A DNA stretch of 64,000 nucleotides from the NCBI RefSeq assembly GCF_001583435.1, contig NZ_CP013251.1, positions 1-64,000 of the forward strand, written 5' to 3'. The notes beneath the pieces are model-generated. The model made no database searches, was not told the origin of the DNA, and saw only the letters and a program-made list of their open reading frames with translations. This document shows, piece after piece, positions 21,014-34,539 of the stretch. This stretch comes from Endozoicomonas montiporae CL-33 (GTDB lineage Bacteria > Pseudomonadota > Gammaproteobacteria > Pseudomonadales > Endozoicomonadaceae). Within the stretch, counting starts at the first letter, position 1, and each line of letters starts with the position of its first letter. A program made the position numbers and the translations under genes.

Positions 21014-22048
21014 ATGAGAAACTTCATTCTTGGGGTTTTATTAACGTGTATTACAGCATCAGGCTTTGCTATTGACAGCCCGATCAAATCCGATTCCCCA
21101 AGAGAATATGTGGTGACTCAGGGCGATACCCTCTGGGATATATCCAACCGGTTTCTGAAAAGCCCCTGGTTGTGGCCGGAGATATGGCACGCAAATTCAC
21201 AGATCCATAACCCGCATTTGATTTTTCCCGGTGATGTTATCAGCCTTGTCTACATCGATGGACGTCCACGGCTCACTATTGTTCGACGCGGTGAGAGTGG
21301 CCGGACGATAAAGCTGAGCCCTAAAATACGAACGCTTCCGGCAGAATCAGCCATTCCTGCCATTCCGCTTCAGGCAATCGACTCATTTCTGAGAGACAGC
21401 CGGATATTCAACAATATGCAGGAGCTTGAGTCTGCACCTTATATATTCGCTACCAAGCAGCAGAAAATTATTGCCGGTGACGGAGACAAAGTTTATGCAA
21501 GAGGGCGGGTGAATACCCTGCAGGGAAGAACACTTGGTGTTTATCGCTCTGGTGACGTGATTTCCGATCCGACCAGTGGTGAGCTGTTAGGTGTTGTTGC
21601 TATGGATATAGCCAATGCAGCCATGTTGAAAACCGCCAGCGATATTGCAACGCTCAGAGTGCTTAACAGCAATAGAGAAGTCCGTGCCGGTGACCGGGTG
21701 TTGCCAGCAGATACTTTCTCCCAGGCCACCACTTTCTTTCCCCGGGCTCCGGATGCTCCTGTTGAAGGTTCGGTGGTGTCCGTAGTGGATGGCGTTGACA
21801 GGGTTGGACGTTATAGCACGGTGATCATTAACAAAGGTCTGCGCGAAGGATTAAAACAGGGTGATATTCTGACCGTACACAAAAGCCTTCTGGTTAAAGA
21901 TCCGCTTTCCGGACAGAACATTAAGCTGCCTCCGGAAAGGGTGGGAATGATTATGGTTTATCGCCCGTTCGAAAAATTGAGCTATGGTATTGTGCTGTCG
22001 GCTAATGAAGACATTACGATTGGGGATAACATAAAGAGTCCTGAATGA
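21014..22048 (+). CDS. LysM-domain peptidoglycan-binding protein
   Basis: A Sec signal peptide (about residues 1-19, MRNFILGVLLTCITASGFA) is followed by one LysM domain (about residues 31-82). Its core is YVVTQGDTLWDISNRF, ending PHLIFPGDVISLVY. The remaining ~260 residues form a conserved but uncharacterised region. The protein probably sits in the periplasm bound to peptidoglycan. This gene type commonly precedes dprA in gammaproteobacteria. Here its TGA stop overlaps the dprA ATG by 4 bp (ATGA), indicating coupling. Confidence 0.85.
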   Translation: MRNFILGVLLTCITASGFAIDSPIKSDSPREYVVTQGDTLWDISNRFLKSPWLWPEIWHANSQIHNPHLIFPGDVISLVYIDGRPRLTIVRRGESGRTIKLSPKIRTLPAESAIPAIPLQAIDSFLRDSRIFNNMQELESAPYIFATKQQKIIAGDGDKVYARGRVNTLQGRTLGVYRSGDVISDPTSGELLGVVAMDIANAAMLKTASDIATLRVLNSNREVRAGDRVLPADTFSQATTFFPRAPDAPVEGSVVSVVDGVDRVGRYSTVIINKGLREGLKQGDILTVHKSLLVKDPLSGQNIKLPPERVGMIMVYRPFEKLSYGIVLSANEDITIGDNIKSPE

Positions 22049-23208
22049 CCCTTGAACTGACCAGACCGAATACTGAACAAGAAGCTTTACACCAGCAGGA
22101 ATGGCAGGAGCTACGGCAATGGCTTTTACTGTCGTTCATTTCCGGGCTGGGTGCGGTTCGTTACCGGGCACTTCTTAAAGAGTTTGGCCATCCTGAAAGC
22201 ATCCTTAATGCTACCTATGATCAGCTTCGGGCCGGTTTACCCGATAAACTGGCTCGATGCATTGCCGGAAAACCTGAAACGTCTGACATCAGCGAACGAA
22301 TTGAGCACACACGTAACTGGCTTGAATCCAGTGAAGCTCACCATATCATTCCTTTAAGCAGTCCGGCCTATCCGGTTCGGCTGAAAGAAATCTCTGATGC
22401 GCCGCCGCTGATTTATGTGATTGGTAATCCCAAGTTGCTGTCAGAACCTCAACTGGCCATTGTCGGGAGTCGTCGCCCTACCCCACAGGGACGACGGCTG
22501 GCTCATGATCTGGCTCTGGAGCTTGGGAAAAGCGGTCTGGTGATTACCAGTGGACTGGCGCTGGGCATCGATGCGGCAGCCCATCAAGGGGTGCTCAGCA
22601 GTTATGGCAGCACGGTTGCGGTGCTGGGTACAGGTGTTGACCAGATCTATCCACGTAACCATCAGAGCCTTTATTCCCTTATTGCCCAGCAGGGAGCCAT
22701 TGTCAGTGAGTTCCCGCTGGGCACTTCTGCCAGCCCCGGACACTTTCCAAGACGAAATCGCATTATCAGTGGTTTGTCCTTGGGCGTTCTGGTGGTAGAG
22801 GCCGAGCAGAAAAGCGGGTCGTTAATCTCTGCACGACTGGCTGCGGAACAGGGACGTGACGTATTTGCAGTGCCCGGATCTGTTTTGAACCCACTCTCCA
22901 AAGGTTGTCACCAGTTATTGCGTGAAGGCGCTGTTCTGGTTGAAAGCCACGAAGATGTCCTTCTGGAGCTTCAGCCTCAGCTTGAACCCATGCTGGATGA
23001 AACTGATCCGGAACCTGAAATAGTCAGCGATGCCATTAACAGCCAGCACCTGCATGTACTGGATTGTATGGGGTTCGATGTTGCCAGTATGGATCTCCTC
23101 AGTCAGGTGTCTGGTCTGCCTTGTGCCGAGCTGTCAGTGGTGCTTACCGAGCTGGAAATGGAAGGGCTGGTGCAGTCTGTTCCCGGTGGTTTTGTCAGGG
23201 TGCGCTGA
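22045..23208 (+). CDS. dprA: DNA-processing protein DprA (Smf)
   Basis: DprA binds incoming single-stranded DNA and loads RecA during natural transformation. The Rossmann-like core has the diagnostic segments AIVGSRRPTPQGRRLA, SGLALGIDAAAHQGVL, GTGVDQIYPRNHQ, SEFPLGTSASPGHFPRRNRI and VEAEQKSGSL. The C-terminal winged-helix domain (ASMDLLSQVSGL onward) is complete. The length of 387 aa is normal. Normally tsaC or another core gene would follow. Here an 11-kb accessory island separates dprA from purE, and two extra copies of the dprA 3' end lie inside the island. Confidence 0.95.
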   Translation: MTLELTRPNTEQEALHQQEWQELRQWLLLSFISGLGAVRYRALLKEFGHPESILNATYDQLRAGLPDKLARCIAGKPETSDISERIEHTRNWLESSEAHHIIPLSSPAYPVRLKEISDAPPLIYVIGNPKLLSEPQLAIVGSRRPTPQGRRLAHDLALELGKSGLVITSGLALGIDAAAHQGVLSSYGSTVAVLGTGVDQIYPRNHQSLYSLIAQQGAIVSEFPLGTSASPGHFPRRNRIISGLSLGVLVVEAEQKSGSLISARLAAEQGRDVFAVPGSVLNPLSKGCHQLLREGAVLVESHEDVLLELQPQLEPMLDETDPEPEIVSDAINSQHLHVLDCMGFDVASMDLLSQVSGLPCAELSVVLTELEMEGLVQSVPGGFVRVR

Positions 23209-24928
23209 AACCGTCTTATCGATTTATTCTCTTTAGTAATCGTTATTTGGACATTGGTACGGTCCGCACTGGCTAAATAACAGGACATTAAATGTATCAA
23301 TCAACTGCTGTACGCTCATTTCGATGATGCCGGTATTGGCGGGGCTTCTCTCAGAAGTAGACGCGGGGCTTGGAATATCTGAAGGAATTGCGCCTTTGCC
23401 TAAGTCCATTATCTCCGGTTCGGTTTGATTAAGCTTATGGCGTATTAGCTCCTCTGTCAGGCCATAAGCGACTCCGTAGTCAGGGGATTCGGGATTATTC
23501 GTCATAAATTCAAATATTACGCTATTTCCTGAGGAAAGAGACTGTATATGTTGATTAATGGTAAAGCGATTTTTAGCCGCAGCGGACTGACCTTTAGGGT
23601 CACGAATATAAACAATATCTTTTTCTTCGTCATAGCCAATCAGACTATAGGCATGCAGGGACCTGATATTCATGAACGGCCTTAACCCCAGGGGAGCTGC
23701 TACTAAAGGCCTGAACTTCAGGGGAGTTGACAACAATGGGAGAATTGAAAAAATCACTGCTTTTTCTTCATCAACAAAAGAGTTGAGTAGCTCCTTAAAC
23801 TGCTCCCGAGTCTTAAATTGCGGGTTGATTAAGAGGTGGGTGGGGGAGTTCATGAGTGCCTCAGATGCTGATAATGTGTTTACTCCAGCCAGATCTGAAT
23901 ATTGATGATACTTAAATTGTGCCTTGCCATTTCGTTTATTCGCATTGAGGTGTTTTTTCGACAGATGGGCGTAAGCAGCTTCCAGCATGGCCAGCCACTT
24001 GCCGCCATCGCGTGTTTTGGCAAAGAGTGAGTAGCGCTCAACTTCGCTGAATTGAATCGAAACTCCCTTACGAAAACCCGGAAAAACAATGGTAAATGTC
24101 TGTTCATCAATAGTCATATGGAAGTAATTGAATATCAGCCTTTTTCCGGTTTCAGAGCTGGCTATTGAGGCCAGCAAGGCGATCAGGACACAATCTGGAA
24201 AATGATTCTGCAGGAGATTATCCGGGATAACACTGGTCAGGCCATGAGGAAAAAGCCGTTTATAGGCCTCGGCAAAGGGTTGCCGTTCAGGCTGTGCAAG
24301 CCAGGCATTCCAGAACGCGTTATCCTGTTCGTAATGGTACTTTGCGACGAGTCCCGACAGTTCAGCCAGCTCGATACTCTCTCTGCTTAATGAGGCTGTG
24401 ACAGGATTTTGCCATGACTCAAAATTAACAAGGTAAAGCCTGATGGTTTGGTAAAGGTCCTTGTTCAGGTACGGGGCATGGTAACCCTCAATCAGCTCAT
24501 CGTAGGAGAGCAGGTCGTCAAAGTTTTTATCTATTGCGCCTGTCAGTTCTGGAAAATAGCGGTATGCCACCGGGTAGCCGGGTGAGAATTCCGCGCCAAA
24601 AATCTGGATAGAAAAAAAGAACAGACCGGCCAGTAATAGAGTGTATAAACGACCCATAATATTTTACCTCCTTTTAAAAAAACTGCACCTTTGGTATGAG
24701 GCAACACCCACTCCCACTGGTGTGATCAGGGGCTGTGACAAGCCCCATCAACCATTTAGGTGACAGGAAGTTCCAAAAGTTCATATATTGGTTAGTGAAC
24801 TGGACACCTCTGTTAGGCGAAGCAGTGTTCAACATAGTCATAAAGACCTGTTAGAATCCGAATCTTGCTGATCAATCCAAATGGAAGTGTTATGAATAAG
24901 CCATTCGTTGATATTTTAATGGGGTCTG
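23084..24928. repeat. Tandem duplication unit 1 (dprA 3' end to purE 5' end)
   Basis: This 1,845-bp segment runs from the dprA 3' end through the first calpain-like gene to a 99-bp copy of the purE leader and start (24830-24928; original at 34626-34724). It is repeated next door from 24929, where dprA 3' sequence resumes in frame. The second unit is 5,399 bp because mobile elements have entered it. Its end (30327/30328) has the same purE/dprA junction. Confidence 0.85.
23233..24657 (-). CDS. Secreted calpain-like cysteine protease with EF-hand loop (copy A)
   Basis: A signal peptide (about residues 1-21) indicates Sec export. A 12-residue EF-hand loop (DKNFDDLLSYDE, residues 43-54) has Ca-ligand residues at positions 1, 3, 5, 9 and 12. 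A calpain-type catalytic centre follows. Cys156 lies in FPDCVLIALLASIAS, His335 in LHAYSLIGYDEE, and the third residue is Asp353 in IRDPKG, where calpains usually have Asn. The papain-like calcium-dependent protease reading is inference from these motifs. The C-terminal ~60 residues are nearly identical to copy B. It is convergent with dprA. Confidence 0.72.
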   Translation of the reverse strand: MGRLYTLLLAGLFFFSIQIFGAEFSPGYPVAYRYFPELTGAIDKNFDDLLSYDELIEGYHAPYLNKDLYQTIRLYLVNFESWQNPVTASLSRESIELAELSGLVAKYHYEQDNAFWNAWLAQPERQPFAEAYKRLFPHGLTSVIPDNLLQNHFPDCVLIALLASIASSETGKRLIFNYFHMTIDEQTFTIVFPGFRKGVSIQFSEVERYSLFAKTRDGGKWLAMLEAAYAHLSKKHLNANKRNGKAQFKYHQYSDLAGVNTLSASEALMNSPTHLLINPQFKTREQFKELLNSFVDEEKAVIFSILPLLSTPLKFRPLVAAPLGLRPFMNIRSLHAYSLIGYDEEKDIVYIRDPKGQSAAAKNRFTINQHIQSLSSGNSVIFEFMTNNPESPDYGVAYGLTEELIRHKLNQTEPEIMDLGKGAIPSDIPSPASTSERSPANTGIIEMSVQQLIDTFNVLLFSQCGPYQCPNNDY

Positions 24929-25053
24929 CCAGTATGGATCTGCTCAGCCAGGTGTCAGGTCTGCCTTGTGCCGAGTTGTCAGTGGTGCTCACCGAGCTGG
25001 AAATGGAAGGGCTGGTGCAGTCTGTTCCCGGTGGTTTTGTCAGGGTGCGCTGA
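24892..25053 (+). CDS. Chimeric purE-dprA junction ORF (copy 1)
   Basis: A 53-aa frame starts at the ATG of a purE-like leader with its ribosome-binding site (GGAAG). It reads the first ~12 residues of a PurE-like protein (MNKPFVDILMGS), then continues in frame into the C-terminal winged helix of DprA (ASMDLLSQ to VRVR). It is probably a by-product of tandem duplication but is an intact, translatable frame. It may be nonfunctional. Confidence 0.5.
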   Translation: MNKPFVDILMGSASMDLLSQVSGLPCAELSVVLTELEMEGLVQSVPGGFVRVR

Positions 25054-25077
25054 AACAGTCTTATCGATTTATTCTCT

Positions 25078-26466
25078 TTAGTTATCGTTATTTGGACATT
25101 GGTACGGTCCGCACTGGCTAAAGTACAGGACATTAAATGTATCAATCAACTGCTGTACGCTCATTTCGATGATGCCGGTATTGGCGGGGCTTCTCTCAGA
25201 AGTAGGCCTAAGTTCAAAAACATCTGAAGGGATTCTGCCCTTGGTTACTTCCAGAATCCCTGGGAAAGTTTGATTAAGTAAAAAGTTTATTTTCGACACT
25301 GTCAGGTCCATACTAAATCCGTAGTCAGGGGATTCGGGATTACTCGCCATGTATTCAAATATTACGCTATTTCCTGAGGAAAGAGACTGGATGTGCTGAT
25401 TAATGGTAAAGCGGTTTTCAACCGCAGCAGACTGACCATGAGGGTCGCGAATATAAACAATATCTTTTTCTTTGTCATAGCCAATCAGGCTGTAGGCATG
25501 ACCGGATTCGATTTCGCTGAATGACCTTAACCCCAGATGTGCTGAAAATAATGGGTTAATAATAACACCCGCTGCTTTTTCATCATCAACAAAAGAGTTG
25601 AGTAGCTCCTTAAACCGCTCCTGAGTCTCAAGTTGCGGGTTGATGAAGTCGGAGGGGGAGTTCATGAGTGTCTTAGAGACTGTTGACGGGTCTATTGTAG
25701 CCAGATCTGAATATCCATGATACTTAAATTGCAACTTGCCATTTCGTTTATTCGCATTAATGTATTTTTTCGATAGATAGCCGTAACTGGCTTCCAGCAT
25801 GGCCAGCCATTTGCCACCATCGCGTGTTTTGGCAAAGTGTGAGTAGCGCTCAACTTCGCTGAATTGAATGAAGGCCTCTGTACGAAAACCGGGAAAAAAA
25901 ATGGCAAATGTCTGTTCATCAACGGTATAGAAGTAATTGAAGATTAGCCTTTTTCCGGTTTCAGAGCTGGCTATTGAGGCCAGCGAGGCAATCAGGACAC
26001 AATCTGGAAAATATGTCTGCAGGAGATTATCCGGGGTAACACTGGTCAGGCCATGAGGAAAAAGCCGTCTATAGGCCTCGGCAAAGGGTTGCCGTTCAGG
26101 CTGTGCAAGCCAGGCATCCCAGAACGCGTTATCCTGTTCGTAATGGTACTTTGCGACGTGTCCCGACAGTTCAGCCAGCTCGATACTCTCTCTGCTTAAT
26201 GAGGCTGTGACAGGATTTTGCCATGACTCAAAATTAACAAGGTAAAGCCTGATGGTCTGGTAAAGGTCCTTGTTCAGGTACGGGGCATGGTAACCCTCAA
26301 TCAGCTCATCGTAGGAGAGCAGGCCGTCAAAGTTTTTATCTATTGCGCCTGTCAGTTCCGGGAAGTAGCGGTATGCCACCGGGTAGCCGGGTGAGAATTC
26401 CACGCCAAAAATCTGGATAGAAAAAAAGAACAGACCGGCCAGTAATAGAGTGTATAAACGACCCAT
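25078..26466 (-). CDS. Secreted calpain-like cysteine protease with EF-hand loop (copy B)
   Basis: This is a paralogue of the gene at 23233-24657, 462 aa, with the same signal peptide. Its EF-hand loop is closer to consensus (DKNFDGLLSYDE, Gly at position 6). The catalytic Cys is in FPDCVLIASLASIAS and the His in GHAYSLIGYDKE, followed by IRDPHG. The N- and C-terminal thirds are nearly identical to copy A. The middle, between the catalytic Cys and His, differs most, including a deletion. This pattern suggests diversification of the substrate-facing part. Upstream, the region normally next to the start is interrupted by the 129-bp repeats. Confidence 0.72.
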   Translation of the reverse strand: MGRLYTLLLAGLFFFSIQIFGVEFSPGYPVAYRYFPELTGAIDKNFDGLLSYDELIEGYHAPYLNKDLYQTIRLYLVNFESWQNPVTASLSRESIELAELSGHVAKYHYEQDNAFWDAWLAQPERQPFAEAYRRLFPHGLTSVTPDNLLQTYFPDCVLIASLASIASSETGKRLIFNYFYTVDEQTFAIFFPGFRTEAFIQFSEVERYSHFAKTRDGGKWLAMLEASYGYLSKKYINANKRNGKLQFKYHGYSDLATIDPSTVSKTLMNSPSDFINPQLETQERFKELLNSFVDDEKAAGVIINPLFSAHLGLRSFSEIESGHAYSLIGYDKEKDIVYIRDPHGQSAAVENRFTINQHIQSLSSGNSVIFEYMASNPESPDYGFSMDLTVSKINFLLNQTFPGILEVTKGRIPSDVFELRPTSERSPANTGIIEMSVQQLIDTFNVLYFSQCGPYQCPNNDN

Positions 26467-26481
26467 AATATTTTACCTCCT

Positions 26482-26739
26482 TCTGAGTAACTCACTCCAC
26501 AAGCCTTGTTGTCACTGGATTTATATTTTTGATAATAAAGTACAAGAAAGGGCTTATTGGAACGTTAGTTACTCATAGATGTTTGGCCGCGTTCGGCCTG
26601 GGGCGCTTTTTCTGAGTAACTCACTCCACAAGCCTTGTTGTCACTGGATTTATATTTTTGATAATAAAGTACAAGAAAGGGCTTATTGGAACGTTAGTTA
26701 CTCATAGATGTTTGGCCGCGTTCGGCCTGGGGCGCTTTT
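26482..26739. repeat. Two tandem copies of a 129-bp hairpin repeat
   Basis: Copies at 26482-26610 and 26611-26739 are identical as far as I can read. Each has imperfect terminal complementarity (GAGTAACT...AAGCC against GGCTT...AGTTACTC). A separate small hairpin GGCCG-CGTT-CGGCC is followed by GGGCGCTTTT. A third copy is split at 27617-27666 and 30051-30133. The repeat interrupts sequence that is continuous upstream of calpain copy A (CCTCCTTTTAAAAAA at 24667). A non-autonomous MITE-like element is likely. Confidence 0.75.
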
Positions 26740-26831: not shown

Positions 26832-27113
26832 ATGTGCCTTACGCAAGTCCTCTGTACAACATGTGGCAGTAACCAAGTTCGGCCTTTCGGATACAGCACT
26901 CATGATGTTCCACGATACTATTGCTGTAATGACAAATGTGAAATCAAAACCTTCATGCTTGAATATCGCTACAAGGCCTGTGAGCCTGGCGTTAAAGAAA
27001 AAATCATCGATATGGCAATAAATGGCAGCGGAATCAGGGATACAAGTAAAGTACTCGGAATAAGCAAGACAACAGTAATAAAGACTCTAAAAAAAAAGAA
27101 AGCGGTCTGGTAA
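26832..27113 (+). CDS. insA: IS1 protein InsA
   Basis: InsA is the 93-aa DNA-binding protein and repressor of IS1, with an N-terminal zinc ribbon (CTTCGSNQ ... YYCCNDKC) and a C-terminal helix-turn-helix (GSGIRDTSKVLGISKTTVI). An A8 run at 27089-27096 near its end is the likely -1 slippage site that produces the InsAB' transposase. Confidence 0.88.
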   Translation: MCLTQVLCTTCGSNQVRPFGYSTHDVPRYYCCNDKCEIKTFMLEYRYKACEPGVKEKIIDMAINGSGIRDTSKVLGISKTTVIKTLKKKKAVW

Positions 27114-27589
27114 AGGTCAACCCAAATATTCAAACTATTGATCTCAAGTCAGATGCAATTATTCATGTAGGGCTTGTCTGCCAAGAGGCTGAGCTAGATG
27201 AGCAGTGGTCGTATGTTCATGATAAATCGAACCAACGCTGGCTTTGGTATGCTGTTGATCACGCTACAAATACCGTGCTTGCTTATGTTTTCGGAAAACG
27301 GAAAGATGAAGTTTTTAAAGAACTCAAAACACTTCTGAAGCCATTTGGTATTAATAAATTTTACACCGATGATTGGGGAGCCTATGAGCGACACCTTGAT
27401 GAAAACATGCATATTATTGGTAAAGCAAACACTCAGAAGATAGAGCGTAAAAACCTTAATTTTCGGACTTGGATTAAACGGTTGGCCAGAAAGACAATTT
27501 GTTTTTCAAAGCTCGAAAAGATGCACGATATTGTTATTGGATTATTGATTAATAAAGTTGAGTTTGGGGTCAATATTCACGCGATATAA
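27089..27589 (+). CDS. insB: IS1 InsB transposase part (by -1 frameshift)
   Basis: This frame is one base back from insA. It reads DEQWSYVHDKSNQRWLWYAVDHA, then FYTDDWGAYERHL and ERKNLNFRTWIKRLARKT, the IS1 DDE transposase. There is no good independent start near its beginning. Expression as an InsA-InsB fusion by slippage on A8 is expected from the family. A GTG at 27275 is internal. Confidence 0.85.
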   Translation, partial: KKKESGLVKVNPNIQTIDLKSDAIIHVGLVCQEAELDEQWSYVHDKSNQRWLWYAVDHATNTVLAYVFGKRKDEVFKELKTLLKPFGINKFYTDDWGAYERHLDENMHIIGKANTQKIERKNLNFRTWIKRLARKTICFSKLEKMHDIVIGLLINKVEFGVNIHAI

Positions 27590-27616
27590 CAGTTCTGGCC
27601 CACTACCTAAAAAACT

Positions 27617-27666
27617 TCTGAGTAACTCACTCCACAAGCCTTGTTGTCACTGGATTTATATTTTTG
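27617..27666. repeat. Left part of the third 129-bp repeat
   Basis: This is the first 50 bp of the 129-bp repeat, cut after ...ATTTTTG by a 2,384-bp insertion. The right part resumes at 30051. 50 plus 83 minus a 4-bp duplication (TTTG) gives exactly 129. Confidence 0.85.
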
Positions 27667-27741
27667 CCGTGAAAATAACCAAATTCAGGACGCAAGTAGC
27701 CACCCCAAACAAAACAAGGAACAATCGTTTCAGAAATAAAA

Positions 27742-27882
27742 TCAGGCTATTTGTTGAGCCTGAGCAAGTAGTCCGTATTCCTCCAGTTTATATAACCAGC
27801 GTGACGCATTTTTCCTGACCATCAGACCCTCATAATCAATGTCAGGATCGACATAAGGCTGTCGTCGCTTTAATGCGAAGCC
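27742..27882 (-). pseudogene. C-terminal remnant of a transposase-like protein
   Basis: An open minus-strand stretch of 46 codons ends in TGA. It reads GFALKRRQPYVDPDIDYEG, then LMVRKNASRWLYKLEEYGLL and AQAQQIA. It has no start and appears to be the tail of a larger protein cut by the neighbouring insertion. The family is not identified. The position at one end of an insertion with a 4-bp target duplication suggests a transposase. Confidence 0.4.
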
Positions 27883-27963
27883 TTGGGTCTAATTCCCCGC
27901 AGCTTGCTGCGAACTACTCAAGAGCTAACTTGATACCCCGGAGCTTGCTCCGGGGTAGTTCAT

Positions 27964-28654
27964 GTGTGCCGAGCATGTTGCACAGCTTGGGGGTGAAAGT
28001 CCCCTGCCCAGCCAGATGAGGGCGAAGGGCTAGCGAAGCACAAGGTTTGTATCGCGAGGTGCAGACTGAAGGCAGTGTGGAGCAAAACTGCGAGCTGACG
28101 AATAGAAATCGGATATGAGGCTGTCTGCGTGAGGACGAGTCAGCATGTGATGACGAAGTCCCATACTCATCCGGACACTCGGACAGTAAATCCGGCAGTT
28201 GTGCAGGGAAGGCGGTGTAACTTACCTCGGGAGGTCTGTCTGGTGTCTGATATTTCAGACTGAGGTCATCGTAAGATGTCCTGATCGCCATACAGAAGTC
28301 AGCAGACGGCATAGTAGCTGGCGAAGTCAGTGAAGGCCTGAACGGTTAGAGCGGTGATTAGTTTCTGTTTCTCGATATATCGGACGCAGACAAAGGCCAG
28401 CAAACACTGGTGCTCATGCCAAGCGGTGACGGCGGAACCGAAAGCTGCAAGGTCATAAGAGCTGAGACTATATCGGCATTACAGGATTACAAAAGCCCGG
28501 CGGGTGGTGTGAGTCATATGTCTTGTATCACTGACCCTTCCATTGTCATGTTTGTGCTGATGGTAGACGCTTAACTAACCGAAACGCCCAGTACGGACCC
28601 GTACGCTGGGTGTTGTGGGAGGAGTGGAGCCGCGAGGCTCCACCCTATCCCGAT
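27964..28654 (+). ncRNA. ORF-less group II intron
   Basis: This is a ribozyme of about 691 nt. The 5' end is GTGTGCC, followed by domain I text typical of bacterial group II introns (GGGGGTGAAAGTCCCC; AAGGCAGTGTGGAGC). The 3' end shows domain V as CGCCCAGTACG-GACC-CGTACGCTGGG. Domain VI follows (GTGGAGCC-GCGA-GGCTCCAC), ending TATCCCGAT. No reverse transcriptase is encoded between them. It lies antisense in the 3' end of an IS110 transposase gene, 7 nt after a stem-loop (ACCCCGGAGC/GCTCCGGGGT). Both this and the CGC-type domain V fit class C introns. Ends were placed by eye. Confidence 0.78.
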
Positions 28655-29749
28655 TAGCGTATAAATGACACGAATAAGCTTGTGGGCTATCGCAATTAAA
28701 CTTCGTTTATGCCCTTTACGAATGACCAGACTTTGATATTTACCCTTGAACTGGCTCTTGGTCTTGATGGCTGCATTAGCCACTTCACAAAGGATTGTCT
28801 TAATCATTTTATTTCCTTTGCGGGTTCGACCACTTTTGCGTTTGCCTGCACTTTCATTATTTCCAGGACAAAGTCCTGCCCATGAAGCAATCTCCTTCAT
28901 GCCTCCGAACTGATCCATATCATCACCAATTTCTGCAATGAGTGTTGCAGCGCTCATCTCACTGACTCCGGGTAGAGTCTGGAGAAGCTGCCAAGCTTCT
29001 TTCCATGGATCAATAGCACTCAGGATAAGGCACTCCAGCTTCTGAAGCTGTTCACTAAGGAAGCTAATGTGTGCCCGAATCTCTTTCAATACGATCAGAT
29101 GAGAGGGAGATAATTTCTCATCCATACTGGCCATCAGTTGTTTTTTGTCTGCCTTTAGTCGCCCATCCGCTTTCTTGATAATATCCTGCAGTGATTCACC
29201 ATCAATCAAAGCATTAATCATACGCTGGCCAGACTTACCATTGATGTCGCTGATCAGGCCTCCAAGACGAATTCCGCTGTCATCGAGAGTTTTATGGAGC
29301 CGGTTCTTCTCAGTGGCTATTTGTTTAACAACAGTGTCTCGGCGTCGAGTCAGTAAGCGCAACTGCTCCTGATCAGGGTGTGGTACAAAGCTCGGACGAA
29401 CCAGACCACAATGAGCAAGCTGGGCTAGCCACTGACTGTCCAGTGTATCTGTTTTACGACCAGGTACATTTTTAACATGCCGGGCATTGACTACCCAGGG
29501 TGTCAAACCAAAGCCAATAATGGATGCATAAATGCTTTTCCAGTAAACCCCCGTGCTTTCCATCACCACAAGATCAATTTGGTGCTGCTGAAGGAACTGG
29601 CACATTAACTCGCGATCTTTGCGGAAAGTACCAAACTCACGGGTAAGCACCTGAGTATCACCCTCAGGCATTTCTTTGCGAACGGCAACCATGACCATCA
29701 TTTTGTGGACATCAATGCCTGCACAGTTTTTCACAATCGTTTGCATCAT
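28571..29749 (-). CDS. IS110-family transposase, C-terminus altered by intron
   Basis: This is a DEDD-type IS110/IS1111 transposase. The N-terminal RuvC-like domain has CAGIDVHK, ESTGVYW and VPGRKTDTLDSQWLAQLA. The Tnp20 domain has LPGVSEMSAATLIAEIGD and GLCPGNNESAGKRKSGRTRK, with the Ser-containing signature. The last native codons are ...VIYTL at 28655. After that the frame runs into the antisense group II intron and ends by chance at 28571. With the intron removed, the frame would continue at 27963 and stop at 27925. Expression of a working transposase is therefore uncertain. Confidence 0.88.
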   Translation of the reverse strand: MMQTIVKNCAGIDVHKMMVMVAVRKEMPEGDTQVLTREFGTFRKDRELMCQFLQQHQIDLVVMESTGVYWKSIYASIIGFGLTPWVVNARHVKNVPGRKTDTLDSQWLAQLAHCGLVRPSFVPHPDQEQLRLLTRRRDTVVKQIATEKNRLHKTLDDSGIRLGGLISDINGKSGQRMINALIDGESLQDIIKKADGRLKADKKQLMASMDEKLSPSHLIVLKEIRAHISFLSEQLQKLECLILSAIDPWKEAWQLLQTLPGVSEMSAATLIAEIGDDMDQFGGMKEIASWAGLCPGNNESAGKRKSGRTRKGNKMIKTILCEVANAAIKTKSQFKGKYQSLVIRKGHKRSLIAIAHKLIRVIYTLIGIGWSLAAPLLPQHPAYGSVLGVSVS

Positions 29750-30488: not shown

Positions 30489-32264
30489 CTATTCTTCATC
30501 TGCTTTATTCAGAATTTCTTTCAGAAGTGACGTTTTGATATTGTCCTTATAGATACGGATATCCTGCATGGCGGCTTCGATTTCGTCTTGACCAGATGAT
30601 TCAGTCAGCTGCTGAAAGGTCTTGTTTATCTGCCTTAGCCAGGCGATATCCTGCCACTTTGGTGGAAGTTCATGAATAGTATTTTGTTCAATAGCCTCGT
30701 CGACCTTGGAGATAGCGAGCCATAATTCACTGCTTCCATCCATTGTTTGCTCGACTAAAGCTCTAAGAATCGGAGAAGCGTTGTAACGGGTAGTCAGTGA
30801 ATTGGTAAATGTTGAGATAGTTGAAGGTTCTTTTAATATCCGTTTAAGTGCACTGGCTTTTTTCCCCGGAGAGAAATAACGGAAATAATCGTGCATGGTT
30901 TCAAGGCCGCTCTCTTTGGCAATGCGGGCAAACTCATCATTAACGAAGCGTTGTAAAATCATCCATTCGTGCAGCGGGAGCTTACCCATGGAAAGCACCC
31001 GAAATAAACTAAGTTCTCCTGTTGTTCCCACCACTGGCTGAGAGAAAAATGCCAGAGATTGAGCCAGAGGTTCTGGTGTTGGAAACACGTTAACCACCCT
31101 GATTTGAAAGCCGTGTTTATCCTGCTGGGCAGGTCTCAGGTCAAACTCTACCTCTCCGGATTTTTCAGACCAGAACTTAACATGGGTAATGTTCACTTTT
31201 CGCAGTGCATCAATAATTGCAGGGTCTTCAAAATCTTCTGCCTTCATTTTCATTATCAGAGTGAGCCTGTTTTTGTTTGTTGCTAAAGACAAAGTCTGAA
31301 TAAACTGAAGGTTGGCAAACAGGGTGTGCATGTATGAGTAGTAGTAATTGCCAGAAACAAAAAAAGCGAGGGCTTTTTTTCTGTTGGTCTGCCCGGTTAA
31401 TGCGAGCAGCTCGTCATCAGATAATACAGACAGGTGTTTAAGATAGTTTGAAGGCTTGTCAGGTTTATTCAGTAACAAACCTATCTTATGACTGCGAAGA
31501 CCAAATTCCCTTGCAATACCTGCCTGCATAGGCTGCCCGGGATAAACAATTTTATGATGAATGGATTTTCCGTAATCAGTCATCGATTCAACATATCCGG
31601 AAAACAGGCTCCTGAAGCTGGTTTCAATATCCAGTCTTTCTTCTGAGAGTAGTTTTAGAGTCAGCTTCTGGTATTCTTCATCCAGACTTTTGACATCATA
31701 CAGGTATTCGCTGTGATGCAGGGTTTCAAAAAAGGAGTAAGGTATCGTGTGTATCTCATTTTCAGGTATCAGTTTGTACAGAACATCATTAACCAGGGCA
31801 ATGGTTTGACGACTGCTTTTTACCCAGCTCCTGGCAATGTCAGTATTGTGAATGTTTTCCTGCGATTCATCATCCATTAGCAGCAACATATCATCTGGAC
31901 CAGAGGGAAAATCGAATATTCTCTTAACCGCTTCAGCCTCTTCAGCTTCGCCATACATGATTCTTTTAAAGGGAATGGGCTTTTTCCGGCCTTCGTTCAC
32001 TACTTCCTGAAACCTGAATACAAAAGCGTAAATACCAAACCCGGTACCACCACTCAGACTCAGCAGAACCAGATTTTTACCCTGCGGTTTTTCAGGTTGC
32101 GTGGCAGTGTAAAGCATAATAGCTGTTTCCTGACCCGGCATGGTAAAAGGAATGCCCAGCAAACTATCCTCTGCGAGTGCAGTTCTGTGCAATAAAAGAC
32201 AGAAAAGAAACAGAACAGGTGCCTTTGGAAAAAAGTTTTTAAATTGTGAGATCAAAAAAATCAT
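30489..32264 (-). CDS. Secreted protein with GT-B-like glycosyltransferase motifs
   Basis: This is a 591-aa protein with a Sec signal peptide (hydrophobic stretch APVLFLFCLLLHRTALA, cleavage near residue 31). No family is firmly recognised. The segment PVVGTTGELSLFRVLSMGK followed by LPLHEW resembles the donor-site loop of GT-B glycosyltransferases, and the preceding LTLIMKMKAEDFEDP / ITHVKFW alternation looks Rossmann-like. It lies 37 bp downstream of the autotransporter gene on the same strand, so the two are probably co-transcribed. A role in modifying the autotransporter is possible but speculative. The C-terminal 150 residues are helical. Confidence 0.6.
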   Translation of the reverse strand: MIFLISQFKNFFPKAPVLFLFCLLLHRTALAEDSLLGIPFTMPGQETAIMLYTATQPEKPQGKNLVLLSLSGGTGFGIYAFVFRFQEVVNEGRKKPIPFKRIMYGEAEEAEAVKRIFDFPSGPDDMLLLMDDESQENIHNTDIARSWVKSSRQTIALVNDVLYKLIPENEIHTIPYSFFETLHHSEYLYDVKSLDEEYQKLTLKLLSEERLDIETSFRSLFSGYVESMTDYGKSIHHKIVYPGQPMQAGIAREFGLRSHKIGLLLNKPDKPSNYLKHLSVLSDDELLALTGQTNRKKALAFFVSGNYYYSYMHTLFANLQFIQTLSLATNKNRLTLIMKMKAEDFEDPAIIDALRKVNITHVKFWSEKSGEVEFDLRPAQQDKHGFQIRVVNVFPTPEPLAQSLAFFSQPVVGTTGELSLFRVLSMGKLPLHEWMILQRFVNDEFARIAKESGLETMHDYFRYFSPGKKASALKRILKEPSTISTFTNSLTTRYNASPILRALVEQTMDGSSELWLAISKVDEAIEQNTIHELPPKWQDIAWLRQINKTFQQLTESSGQDEIEAAMQDIRIYKDNIKTSLLKEILNKADEE

Positions 32265-32301
32265 CTTACAAAACCTTATTTTTATTGTTGTTTATAAAAA
32301 T

Positions 32302-34539
32302 TCAAAAGTTGTATTCCAGACGTAAATAACCAGAATCACTATGCCACCTTTCAGACCCGTTGCGACTGAAGGCCAACTCTATAACCGCCTGTTCTGACAT
32401 TGAGTAGCTTAAGCCAGCTTGAATCTCATAGCGGTTTTTATTAAGGCTTGTGCCTGTGGATGTAAACCAGGAGGGCTTGCTAGTGAAGGCATAAGCTGTT
32501 TTTACCTCATATGCTTTTGCTTTGAAGTCATGCCAGACAGAGCCTGAAAATTGCCATGTCAGCAAATGGCGACCTATTTTCTGAAAGGTTTCTGTAAGGA
32601 TGCCCACACCGGATTCCATCAGTTTGTACTCATTGGATGCATAGTGGTAATTGAGCGAGCCGGTTTCGGTATAATTTGGTGTCGATAAAGTCTGATAATT
32701 CAAGCTGATATGAGGTGAAATAAACCAGTCTGAGTACTGAAGTTTCTTAGCCAGAAGCAATGATAACCCATGATGCCTGCTATCGAACTTGCTTTTGGCT
32801 GAATCAAGTGAGGCAACTTCATAAAATCGCTGATGAGTATTTTTATGGAGGCCGGAACTAAGAACGGCAGTTAAAGACCAGTCTGACCAGCGTTTTTGAC
32901 CGTAAAGACTGATCAGATAACTTTGCAGGTTTAAAAAATCCGGAGAATGATTTTTTTTCGTTTTGCTGTTCCCGTAACTAAAGGCCACACCTGCCATTAA
33001 ATCGTTTGACCATTGTTGATCATAACCAAGAGTTAGTCCGTCGCTGGTTACATCGTAGCCTCTGATCAGTGTGCCATTTTTCTTTCGCTGCTTTTTGTAG
33101 TGGCTGGTAGAGTGATACGTTACCCCCCATAAACGTTTACTGGCTGATTCGCTGGTGTCACCATAATTTAAGGAGTCAAATCGACTGGCAGCTTTTTGCG
33201 TCAGTTGCTGTTGAATCGACCGGGTCATTGTCATTGGCAAAGAGGCAATACTGCCATTAGTCGAAGGCTTGAGCTCTTTTGCAATCTTTGCCAGCTGCTC
33301 GTCGTCCGAAACGGCTGTCAGTGCGGAAAACCAGCTCTCAACTTCACTGGTCGTTGCCAGGCTGATTTCAGGCGTTTCCAGAACGTCAATAACGTTTTCC
33401 AGAGCTTCGCTGTAGGCTTCTTTAGAATCATCAATCAGGCCACTTTCAGCTATCACCTCATCAATGTCTCTGGCTTGAAGGGTAATATCGATTTCCTGAT
33501 GATTTCCGGTGATGGAAATGCTGTCAAAAAACAGAGAACTATCGATGTTTAGCTGGTCCTTTCCAGCAATCGTAGTGTTTGAACGCAAGGCTTTATAGTT
33601 TGAAATGCCTTCTCTGGTCAGTACATAAAAATCAGGCTCCAGCGACAGAGTGCTGCCCGATGAAAAGCTGGCACTACCACTTTCTATCACAGGTTGGGTC
33701 AGGTTTGCTTCAGTCAGTGATACAACCAGAGAACTGTTTGTTTCCTGAATATAATCGGTTCCATCCAGTACCAGACCATCAGTAGAAAGCTCTCCAGAGT
33801 TTCTGAACTGCAGAGTTCCAGTAAATGTGCCGGATACATTGCTCTGGCCGCTGCTTGTTACCTGTTCAACTCCGTTTACAACGCCATTGAACACACCGCT
33901 ATCAAGCTTAAAATTGTCGGTGAGACTTGGAGAACCATAAATATTACCTCGAATCACTCCCTTATTCTCAAGGTTCAGGGCTGAACTCGAGGAGAAATCA
34001 ATCGCAGTTCCAGCACCAGCATTCAATGAGCCGTTATTGATAATGGTGCCGGTGAAAGGCGCATTACTGCGGATGAGATTTTTGCCATTAATCGCTCCGG
34101 TATTGTATATTCTGCCGGAACTGGCTCCCAGGATATCAATGGCAAAGCTGCTGCTGGCAGACTGTATATCACCGTAATTGTTAATAATGAGTGTTCCGCC
34201 ATAAGCCTTTATAACCGATCCTGCGTTAAGGTCTGCAGACAACGTTTTCACATTGTATAAAGTCAGGTTGGTGTTTGCTGACACATTGAAAACCGATTGT
34301 CCCGGCCCGGCAGCTTTGAGAGAAGCGAAATTATCGACTTCATACTTTCCTGCAGGAGAGGGATCAAGCCTGAATATAAATGGTTCAAGCTCTTTACCCG
34401 TTTGATCATTCAAAATAGTGTAATTGTTGTTGATAATTGTCAGAGCAAAAGAGGGCTGAATAAGTAATCCTGTGCACAATTTAATCAATAAATGAATAGA
34501 GTGCTTCTGAAAGCCGCTGCCATGGAAAAGAGATATCAT
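32302..34539 (-). CDS. Classical autotransporter (type Va)
   Basis: A signal peptide lies at about residues 1-32. The passenger (about 33-370) is rich in short Asn/Gly/Ser/Thr beta-helix turns such as GTLIINNYGDIQS, GRIYNTGAING and GTIINNGSLNAG. After a helical linker comes a C-terminal ~280-residue beta-barrel of alternating strands (LWGVTYHSTSHY, GLTLGYDQQW, AGVAFSYG), ending RLEYNF with the terminal Phe typical of outer-membrane barrels. The passenger should be exposed on the cell surface, probably in adhesion. It heads a two-gene unit with the protein at 30489-32264. Confidence 0.88.
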   Translation of the reverse strand: MISLFHGSGFQKHSIHLLIKLCTGLLIQPSFALTIINNNYTILNDQTGKELEPFIFRLDPSPAGKYEVDNFASLKAAGPGQSVFNVSANTNLTLYNVKTLSADLNAGSVIKAYGGTLIINNYGDIQSASSSFAIDILGASSGRIYNTGAINGKNLIRSNAPFTGTIINNGSLNAGAGTAIDFSSSSALNLENKGVIRGNIYGSPSLTDNFKLDSGVFNGVVNGVEQVTSSGQSNVSGTFTGTLQFRNSGELSTDGLVLDGTDYIQETNSSLVVSLTEANLTQPVIESGSASFSSGSTLSLEPDFYVLTREGISNYKALRSNTTIAGKDQLNIDSSLFFDSISITGNHQEIDITLQARDIDEVIAESGLIDDSKEAYSEALENVIDVLETPEISLATTSEVESWFSALTAVSDDEQLAKIAKELKPSTNGSIASLPMTMTRSIQQQLTQKAASRFDSLNYGDTSESASKRLWGVTYHSTSHYKKQRKKNGTLIRGYDVTSDGLTLGYDQQWSNDLMAGVAFSYGNSKTKKNHSPDFLNLQSYLISLYGQKRWSDWSLTAVLSSGLHKNTHQRFYEVASLDSAKSKFDSRHHGLSLLLAKKLQYSDWFISPHISLNYQTLSTPNYTETGSLNYHYASNEYKLMESGVGILTETFQKIGRHLLTWQFSGSVWHDFKAKAYEVKTAYAFTSKPSWFTSTGTSLNKNRYEIQAGLSYSMSEQAVIELAFSRNGSERWHSDSGYLRLEYNF

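Follow-up and report, generated by a model that had tools for sequence, protein, structure and literature searches.

The first 64,000 nucleotides of contig NZ_CP013251.1 from Endozoicomonas montiporae CL-33 (the window, read on the forward strand) contain two neighbouring paralogous genes on the minus strand, copy 1 and copy 2, and each of them probably encodes an exported, active calpain-family (C2) cysteine endopeptidase that carries a pair of EF-hands at its N-terminus, as judged from the sequences and from predicted structures. Bacterial calpains are already known, and what is new here is the N-terminal EF-hand domain, which is unreported in the accessible parts of the surveys from 2015 (PMC4631099) and 2022 (PMC9380684). 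An earlier interpretation made from the letters of the DNA, here called the sequence-only reading, had placed two paralogous open reading frames (ORFs) at this locus, and both were recovered at the same coordinates, on the minus strand, each with a GGAGG upstream of its ATG. Since full-length homologues occur in other Endozoicomonas genomes, both ORFs are regarded as real genes. The copies are 81% identical in alignment and were the only members found in a search of their own 5.43 Mb single-contig genome.

25078 to 26466, minus: copy 2, putative export-type EF-hand calpain-family protein, 462 amino acids (ORF, homologues, predicted fold)
23233 to 24657, minus: copy 1, its paralogue, 474 amino acids (ORF, own-genome search, alignment)
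26476 to 26480, minus: GGAGG upstream of the copy 2 ATG (sequence)
24667 to 24671, minus: GGAGG upstream of the copy 1 ATG (sequence)
26404 to 26466, minus: hydrophobic export-type N-terminal segment of copy 2, residues 1-21 (hydrophobicity; presumed cleavage site)
24595 to 24657, minus: hydrophobic export-type N-terminal segment of copy 1, residues 1-21 (hydrophobicity; presumed cleavage site)
26305 to 26340, minus: EF-hand loop of copy 2, residues 43-54 (alignment, loop pattern; helix-loop-helix in the models)
24496 to 24531, minus: EF-hand loop of copy 1, residues 43-54, with Asp at loop position 6 (alignment, loop pattern)
26137 to 26403, minus: predicted N-terminal EF-hand-pair domain of copy 2, about residues 22-110, second loop degenerate (model, conservation)
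25999 to 26001, minus: Cys156 codon of copy 2, putative nucleophile (invariant in alignments; bases read)
24190 to 24192, minus: Cys156 codon of copy 1 (alignment; bases read)
25498 to 25500, minus: His323 codon of copy 2 (invariant in alignments; bases read)
23653 to 23655, minus: His335 codon of copy 1 (motif; bases read)
25444 to 25446, minus: Asp341 codon of copy 2, at the place of the calpain catalytic Asn (alignments; bases read)
23599 to 23601, minus: Asp353 codon of copy 1, at the place of the calpain catalytic Asn (alignment; bases read)
25192 to 25350, minus: variable insert in the second lobe of copy 2, residues 373-425 (short relatives, P0021 for example, lack most of it)

Calpain core, EF-hand domain and export-type N-terminus

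The residues Gln150, Cys156 and His323 (copy 2 numbers, the His being that of HAYSLIGY) are invariant in both the 17-sequence and the 25-sequence alignment; the Gln precedes the Cys by six residues, and Cys, His and oxyanion Gln stand at calpain spacing. For the counts that follow, 25 EF-type proteins were taken from the alignments, namely 23 proteins of the genus together with P0022 and P0023; P0001 (a fragment of copy 2) and P0017 (partial) were left out before counting, and some genus genes (in L041, L042 and others) lie outside the 25. In the 17-sequence alignment the third catalytic position, with Asp, lies in an RDPxG motif. Asp was found there in 17 of the 25 EF-type proteins including both copies and Asn in 8, which agrees with a calpain triad if Asp is tolerated as in PalB and disagrees with it if Asn is strictly demanded. 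The calpain-like Cys/His pair with Asp for Asn proposed in the sequence-only reading was in this way confirmed in the alignments. The residue following Asn-Pro, which is Trp in calpains, is His or Lys here. The Gln-Cys motif of P0021 and the Trp-Glu motifs of P0005 and P0021 were read by eye from the alignments, without a script match.

Structure prediction followed by fold search, which had been recommended for finding a C2 core, returned calpains as the top matches for both predicted models, and the models contain a complete two-lobed calpain core. The other recommended search, with hidden Markov models of calpain families, gave a divided answer: the copies fall below the cut-off of PF00648, and all 10 relatives examined exceed it, three of them being 62-67% identical to copy 2. 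A PF00648 search of the copies' own genome at E <= 1 retrieved neither copy and one chance-like match elsewhere, a single-sequence search of solved structures gave three chance-like matches (best E 0.33), and NCBIfam gave one match per copy, far below its cut-off.

The last motif of the core, TFN, reaches residue 445 of 462, and copy 2 ends 17 residues later, a length at which the C-terminal penta-EF-hand and beta-sandwich domains of a classical calpain are absent. The residues of the calcium sites within the calpain core are listed in the accessible text of PMC4631099, and three of them were placed here by our own alignment. Two of them belong to site 1 of calpain cores, an Asp that precedes the Gln by three residues and a Glu that precedes a conserved Trp by two, and the copies carry Asn and Gly there. 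The third, the site-2 Glu that follows the Asn by six residues, is replaced by Ala in copy 1 as well as in copy 2. The site-1 Asp and Glu are both present in P0024 and P0025, and the Asp alone in P0026. Two residues before the Trp, Gly is found in 24 of the EF-type proteins and Ala in one. In the EF-type proteins, then, site 1 has apparently been lost and an N-terminal EF-hand gained or retained.

The EF-hand loop reads DKNFDDLLSYDE in copy 1 and DKNFDGLLSYDE in copy 2, where it starts 22 residues past the presumed cleavage site. Its putative ligands D43, N45, D47 and E54 place acidic residues or Asn at loop positions 1, 3, 5 and 12, and all 17 aligned sequences share D43, D47, L50, S51 and E54. 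A near-canonical 12-residue loop had been claimed and is present at residues 43-54 of both copies, although both fail the form of the PROSITE EF-hand pattern PS00018 used here because of a Phe at loop position 4. The PROSITE pattern was passed by 16 of the 25 EF-type proteins, and a looser pattern, written after the fact, by all 25; three canonical calpains match neither. In a background set of 249 other ORFs (ATG-started, at least 100 amino acids, 74,752 amino acids in sum, both strands of the window and of 16 fetched regions) the PROSITE pattern matched once and the looser one not at all.

In one model helices are predicted at residues 6-20, 30-37, 44-55 and 70-78 (mature numbering) with strand residues in both loops, the other model being similar, so the EF-hand helix-loop-helix is predicted as a pair in which the second loop lacks the usual acidic ligands. 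The blocks of this domain were modelled with a predicted local distance difference test (pLDDT) score of 78-95, at least 89 in seven of nine, and in the diverged profile the EF part finds structures with EF-hands, an EF-hand kinase (2.1e-6) among them, and PDCD6 (1.4e-4). Since the Pfam cut-off was missed, the label EF-hand-type is based on the loop and the predicted fold. Among 15 close members (the 17 sequences of alignment A1 minus P0016 and P0018) the mean pairwise identity of the EF region, 0.85, is the highest in the family, the other regions giving 0.55 (residues 1-21), 0.83 (111-175), 0.59 (176-322), 0.71 (323-372), 0.45 (373-425) and 0.71 (426-462).

The best 12-residue window at the N-terminus starts at residue 6 in both copies and has a mean Kyte-Doolittle value of 2.33, so that of the Sec signal proposed earlier the hydrophobic stretch is present and the cleavage site is presumed. 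A hydrophobic N-terminus (mean 1.96-2.95) occurs in 22 of the 23 genus proteins; P0015 has a value of 1.45 and an N-terminus that does not align, and P0022 and P0023 have no hydrophobic N-terminus. Pfam detected no cell-binding domain in the copies.

Compared with bacterial C2 calpains such as Tpr, the copies have the same catalytic core, including its Cys, its His and the oxyanion Gln, and some of those members are predicted to be secreted; the copies differ by the N-terminal EF-hand pair, the Asp for Asn, the second-lobe insert and the weak or sub-cut-off match to PF00648. Tpr of Porphyromonas gingivalis is given as the only bacterial homologue with any biochemical characterisation and is inhibited by ethylenediaminetetraacetic acid, and in the available part of the same 2015 survey signal peptides were found in 3 of 66 bacterial homologues and an EF-hand domain in none, the bacterial proteins being mostly not calcium-dependent (PMC4631099). 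The classical calpains 1, 2, 3, 8 and 9 carry a C-terminal penta-EF-hand, whereas the EF-hands of the copies form an N-terminal pair in which one loop is good. The copies are also too short for the beta-sandwich domain, have none of the three placed core calcium-site residues and begin with an export-type N-terminus. According to the accessible text of the 2022 survey, bacterial calpains have only the catalytic domain in common with the others and some in cyanobacteria carry PPC domains (PMC9380684). These cyanobacterial proteins resemble the copies in combining a C-terminal bacterial calpain core with an extra N-terminal domain, but this is PPC and not EF-hand, Asn is kept, and no EF-hand is reported there for bacterial calpains (PMC9380684). 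A Gloeobacter violaceus homologue, described in the part of PMC4631099 at hand, likewise has N-terminal calcium-binding HemolysinCaBind repeats and is possibly secreted, but its eight repeats are of RTX type and not EF-hands. P0022, from a metagenome-assembled genome (MAG) of Candidatus Sericytochromatia, and P0023 also have an EF loop ahead of a calpain core, separated from the catalytic Cys by 98-116 residues (in copy 2 by 113), and they share the Gly two residues before the conserved Trp; they differ from the copies in the missing hydrophobic N-terminus, an Asn in the triad and identities to copy 2 of only 17% and 21%.

Proposed mode of action and alternative explanations

In the proposed mechanism the protein would leave the cytoplasm by Sec export, a step supported by the sequence, and would outside meet millimolar calcium, which the EF-hand may bind to judge by its loop. 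The N-terminal domain might then stabilise or lock the two lobes in the active arrangement of what is predicted to be a two-lobed thiol protease with an EF-hand pair at its front. Calcium would thereby serve less as a graded signal than as a switch on export, the enzyme staying quiet as long as it is in the cell, and this form is favoured because calcium outside is high and steady; the switch by itself we place a little below an even chance. Release beyond the periplasm and extracellular or host proteins as substrates would be the likeliest further steps, suggested by the genomic context, and type II secretion of these proteins is at most possible, two GspD matches exceeding the cut-off in the genome. 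Local duplication and exchange between the copies would diversify the middle and the second-lobe insert, parts with a possible influence on the choice of substrates, and would leave the EF-hand domain the most constant. The sequence-only reading had spoken of a calcium-activated calpain acting outside the cytoplasm, perhaps on host material, and of this the calpain core, the EF loop and the export-type N-terminus are borne out by sequence and models, calcium activation and host substrates being conjectural.

Several observations weigh against the exported, active EF-hand calpain. Asp replaces the catalytic Asn in both copies, PF00648 gives copy 2 15.0 bits against a cut-off of 23.8 and does not list copy 1, and the Pfam C2 entry is absent from 7 of the 18 homologues of the first protein search. 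The input alignment of the second model held three canonical calpains, possibly favouring a calpain fold. The Pfam EF-hand cut-off was reached by none of the tabulated proteins: the best score, in a relative, is 21.5 bits where 25.4 are required, and copy 2 has 12.3 where 25.9 are required. Of the two loops just one seems capable of binding calcium, and copy 1 is without the usual Gly at loop position 6. In the variable insert the ratio of nonsynonymous to synonymous substitution rates (dN/dS) between the copies is 1.5, a point estimate with no significance attached. The EF site is perhaps merely structural, because millimolar calcium outside would keep it always filled.

This last objection leads to the main rival, in which the enzyme is the same, the EF-hand serves purely as a structural site for calcium or as a part of the fold, and there is no regulation by calcium. 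Sea water contains about 10 mM calcium, which counts for this view, as do the second, degenerate loop beside the near-canonical one and the absence of the three placed core residues. However, no other region of the family is as well conserved as the EF region, and the loop recurs in the distant P0022 and P0023, for which calcium would be low if they are cytosolic, and we give the structural explanation a sizeable chance, clearly short of even. That the proteins are pseudo-enzymes or binding proteins, with the calpain fold kept and proteolysis lost through the Asp, would fit the prevalence of Asp at this position in the EF-type proteins and the 29 of 267 calpain homologues counted as non-peptidases in the accessible part of PMC4631099; it is quite unlikely in view of the invariant Gln, Cys and His, the dN/dS of 0.15 around the His and Asp, and the example of PalB, where according to the same text Asp for Asn may stay functional (PMC4631099).

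A periplasmic housekeeping or maturation protease without a role outside the cell or with a host would explain why only an export-type N-terminus is visible and no cell-binding domain is found by Pfam, and several neighbours are housekeeping genes, but the patchy presence, up to six copies per genome and differing chromosomal places are unlike a housekeeping gene and make this unlikely. Membership of another papain-like family (C39-like, GtgE-like or BtrH-like) is very improbable: of the Pfam families, Peptidase_C39_2 matches both copies best (E 0.019 and 0.0036) and is listed for P0012 and P0017, and BtrH_N and GtgE weakly match some relatives, yet none exceeds its cut-off in the Pfam tables of the copies and 10 relatives, calpains lead the fold searches, and the diverged profile matches the calpain segment as far as DG.F.M, close to the end. 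A C39, BtrH or GtgE-type peptidase was rejected on these sub-cut-off matches and the contrary fold search.

A wider proposal is put forward tentatively and is somewhat unlikely, namely that bacteria own EF-hand-controlled calpains apart from the penta-EF-hand type, in which the EF pair replaced the lost core sites, and that the exported Endozoicomonas branch employs calcium as its switch on export and has diversified through duplication and exchange between copies so as to act on marine host proteins. The N-terminal EF-hand calpains, found in one genus, one distant MAG and P0023, could provide a simple single-chain system for asking whether EF-hand control of calpains originated repeatedly. 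They would also be candidate secreted enzymes in the interaction of Endozoicomonas with marine animals, the genus occurring with many marine invertebrates according to the accessible part of PMC6955870. A literature search, for which subscription journals were mostly out of reach, found no report of EF-hand bacterial calpains or of a calpain in Endozoicomonas. Parts of the architecture have already been flagged automatically, since P0016 is entered in a database as "EF-hand domain-containing protein" and P0011 and P0019 as "C2 family cysteine protease".

Duplication, distribution and genomic surroundings

Over residues 1-150, divided into five 30-codon blocks, the copies are 95.6-98.9% identical in nucleotides, and over their final 24 residues 95.8%; the identity drops to 66.7% in block 299-318 and 64.4% in block 379-408, in agreement with the earlier remark that the copies are alike at their ends and differ in the middle. 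Point estimates of dN/dS between them are 0.71 overall, 0.21 for residues 22-110, 0.57 for 111-175, 0.76 for 176-322 and 0.15 for 323-372. Synonymous change affects about 8 of 144 sites at the ends and 38 of 166 in the middle (Fisher p 1.2e-5, with rounded counts and regions chosen after the profile was seen). Because synonymous change is uneven as well, exchange or conversion between the copies is likely, and selection alone was rejected as the cause of the diverging middle. The mosaic thus suggests recombination between the copies and not selection only; no donor for the exchanged middle was found. The copies pair in the tree at 92/93 support, below the starred level; long branches make the deep placements uncertain, and the place of row G021_L029 is uninformative, its core not having been properly cut out.

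22045 to 23208, plus: intact dprA; the duplicated segment included its 3' end (Pfam, repeat)
24927 to 25053, plus: dprA 3' remnant beside copy 2 and between both genes, the last 127 bases of dprA (repeat family D2)

The second dprA 3' copy between the genes points to the tandem duplication of a segment that runs from within dprA to a point shortly upstream of the calpain gene. The pair is flanked by dprA and an insertion sequence (IS) gene of IS1 type (26832-27113), and the gene order is a LysM protein, dprA, the two copies, IS elements, a 591-amino-acid protein and an autotransporter, then purE-, tsaC-, hemF- and aroE-like genes. The pair would seem to lie in an insertion within an otherwise housekeeping stretch. 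Directly upstream of copy 2, at 26481-26738, a 129-base unit occurs as two identical tandem copies; the IS1-type gene and an IS110-family transposase adjoin the pair at 26832-29749, and at 30489-34539 the 591-amino-acid protein, without a Pfam match, lies beside the autotransporter of 745 amino acids.

The A1 profile at 0.001, applied to 57 relatives, found matches in 8 of 10 genus genomes (own included) and in none of the 47 others. With the A2 profile 14 of 37 family genomes matched, the long matches being confined to the same eight, some of them by construction as A2 was built from three of those genomes, and the other six (two of the genus and four of other genera) giving short, weak matches. 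The eight genomes hold 22 genes (2, 3, 2, 6, 5, 1, 2 and 1), and in the genome with the maximum of six, five are clustered with two other ORFs between. Chromosomal places vary, with rpoD-/dnaG-like neighbours in two genomes and priA-like, nth-like and dnaJ-/dapB-like neighbours elsewhere, names assigned by eye from translations. Three protein searches gave 18, 19 and 7 proteins, the latter two among the 7997 and 7993 candidates sharing most words; P0022 to P0026 are not placed in the genus, and P0022 and P0023 have the EF loop before the core. A scan of genome contigs gave two loci, both in Endozoicomonas sp. ISHI1.

In the 57 relatives PF00648 matched 13 at 0.01, with 11 over the cut-off, and in a draw of 398 genomes of the phylum it matched 3 at 1e-6; in the same draw the diverged profile at 1e-5 found the own genome and two others with short, core-only matches. 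A plasmid or phage gene was rejected, copy 2 having no match in either collection. Proteins of about 470-510 amino acids with partial calpain-type matches and a DPYG motif were seen at L038:1120-2655, L044:2609-4030 and L035 (minus-strand ORF, 479 amino acids); a hydrophobic N-terminus is absent by eye, and they are perhaps a second, diverged calpain-like group. In another genus of the family, L029 and L030 encode calpain-core proteins of 593 amino acids with RNPWG and, by eye, no hydrophobic N-terminus, and L031 (G020), likewise from another genus of the family, holds a calpain core over the Pfam cut-off inside an open frame of 2914 amino acids.

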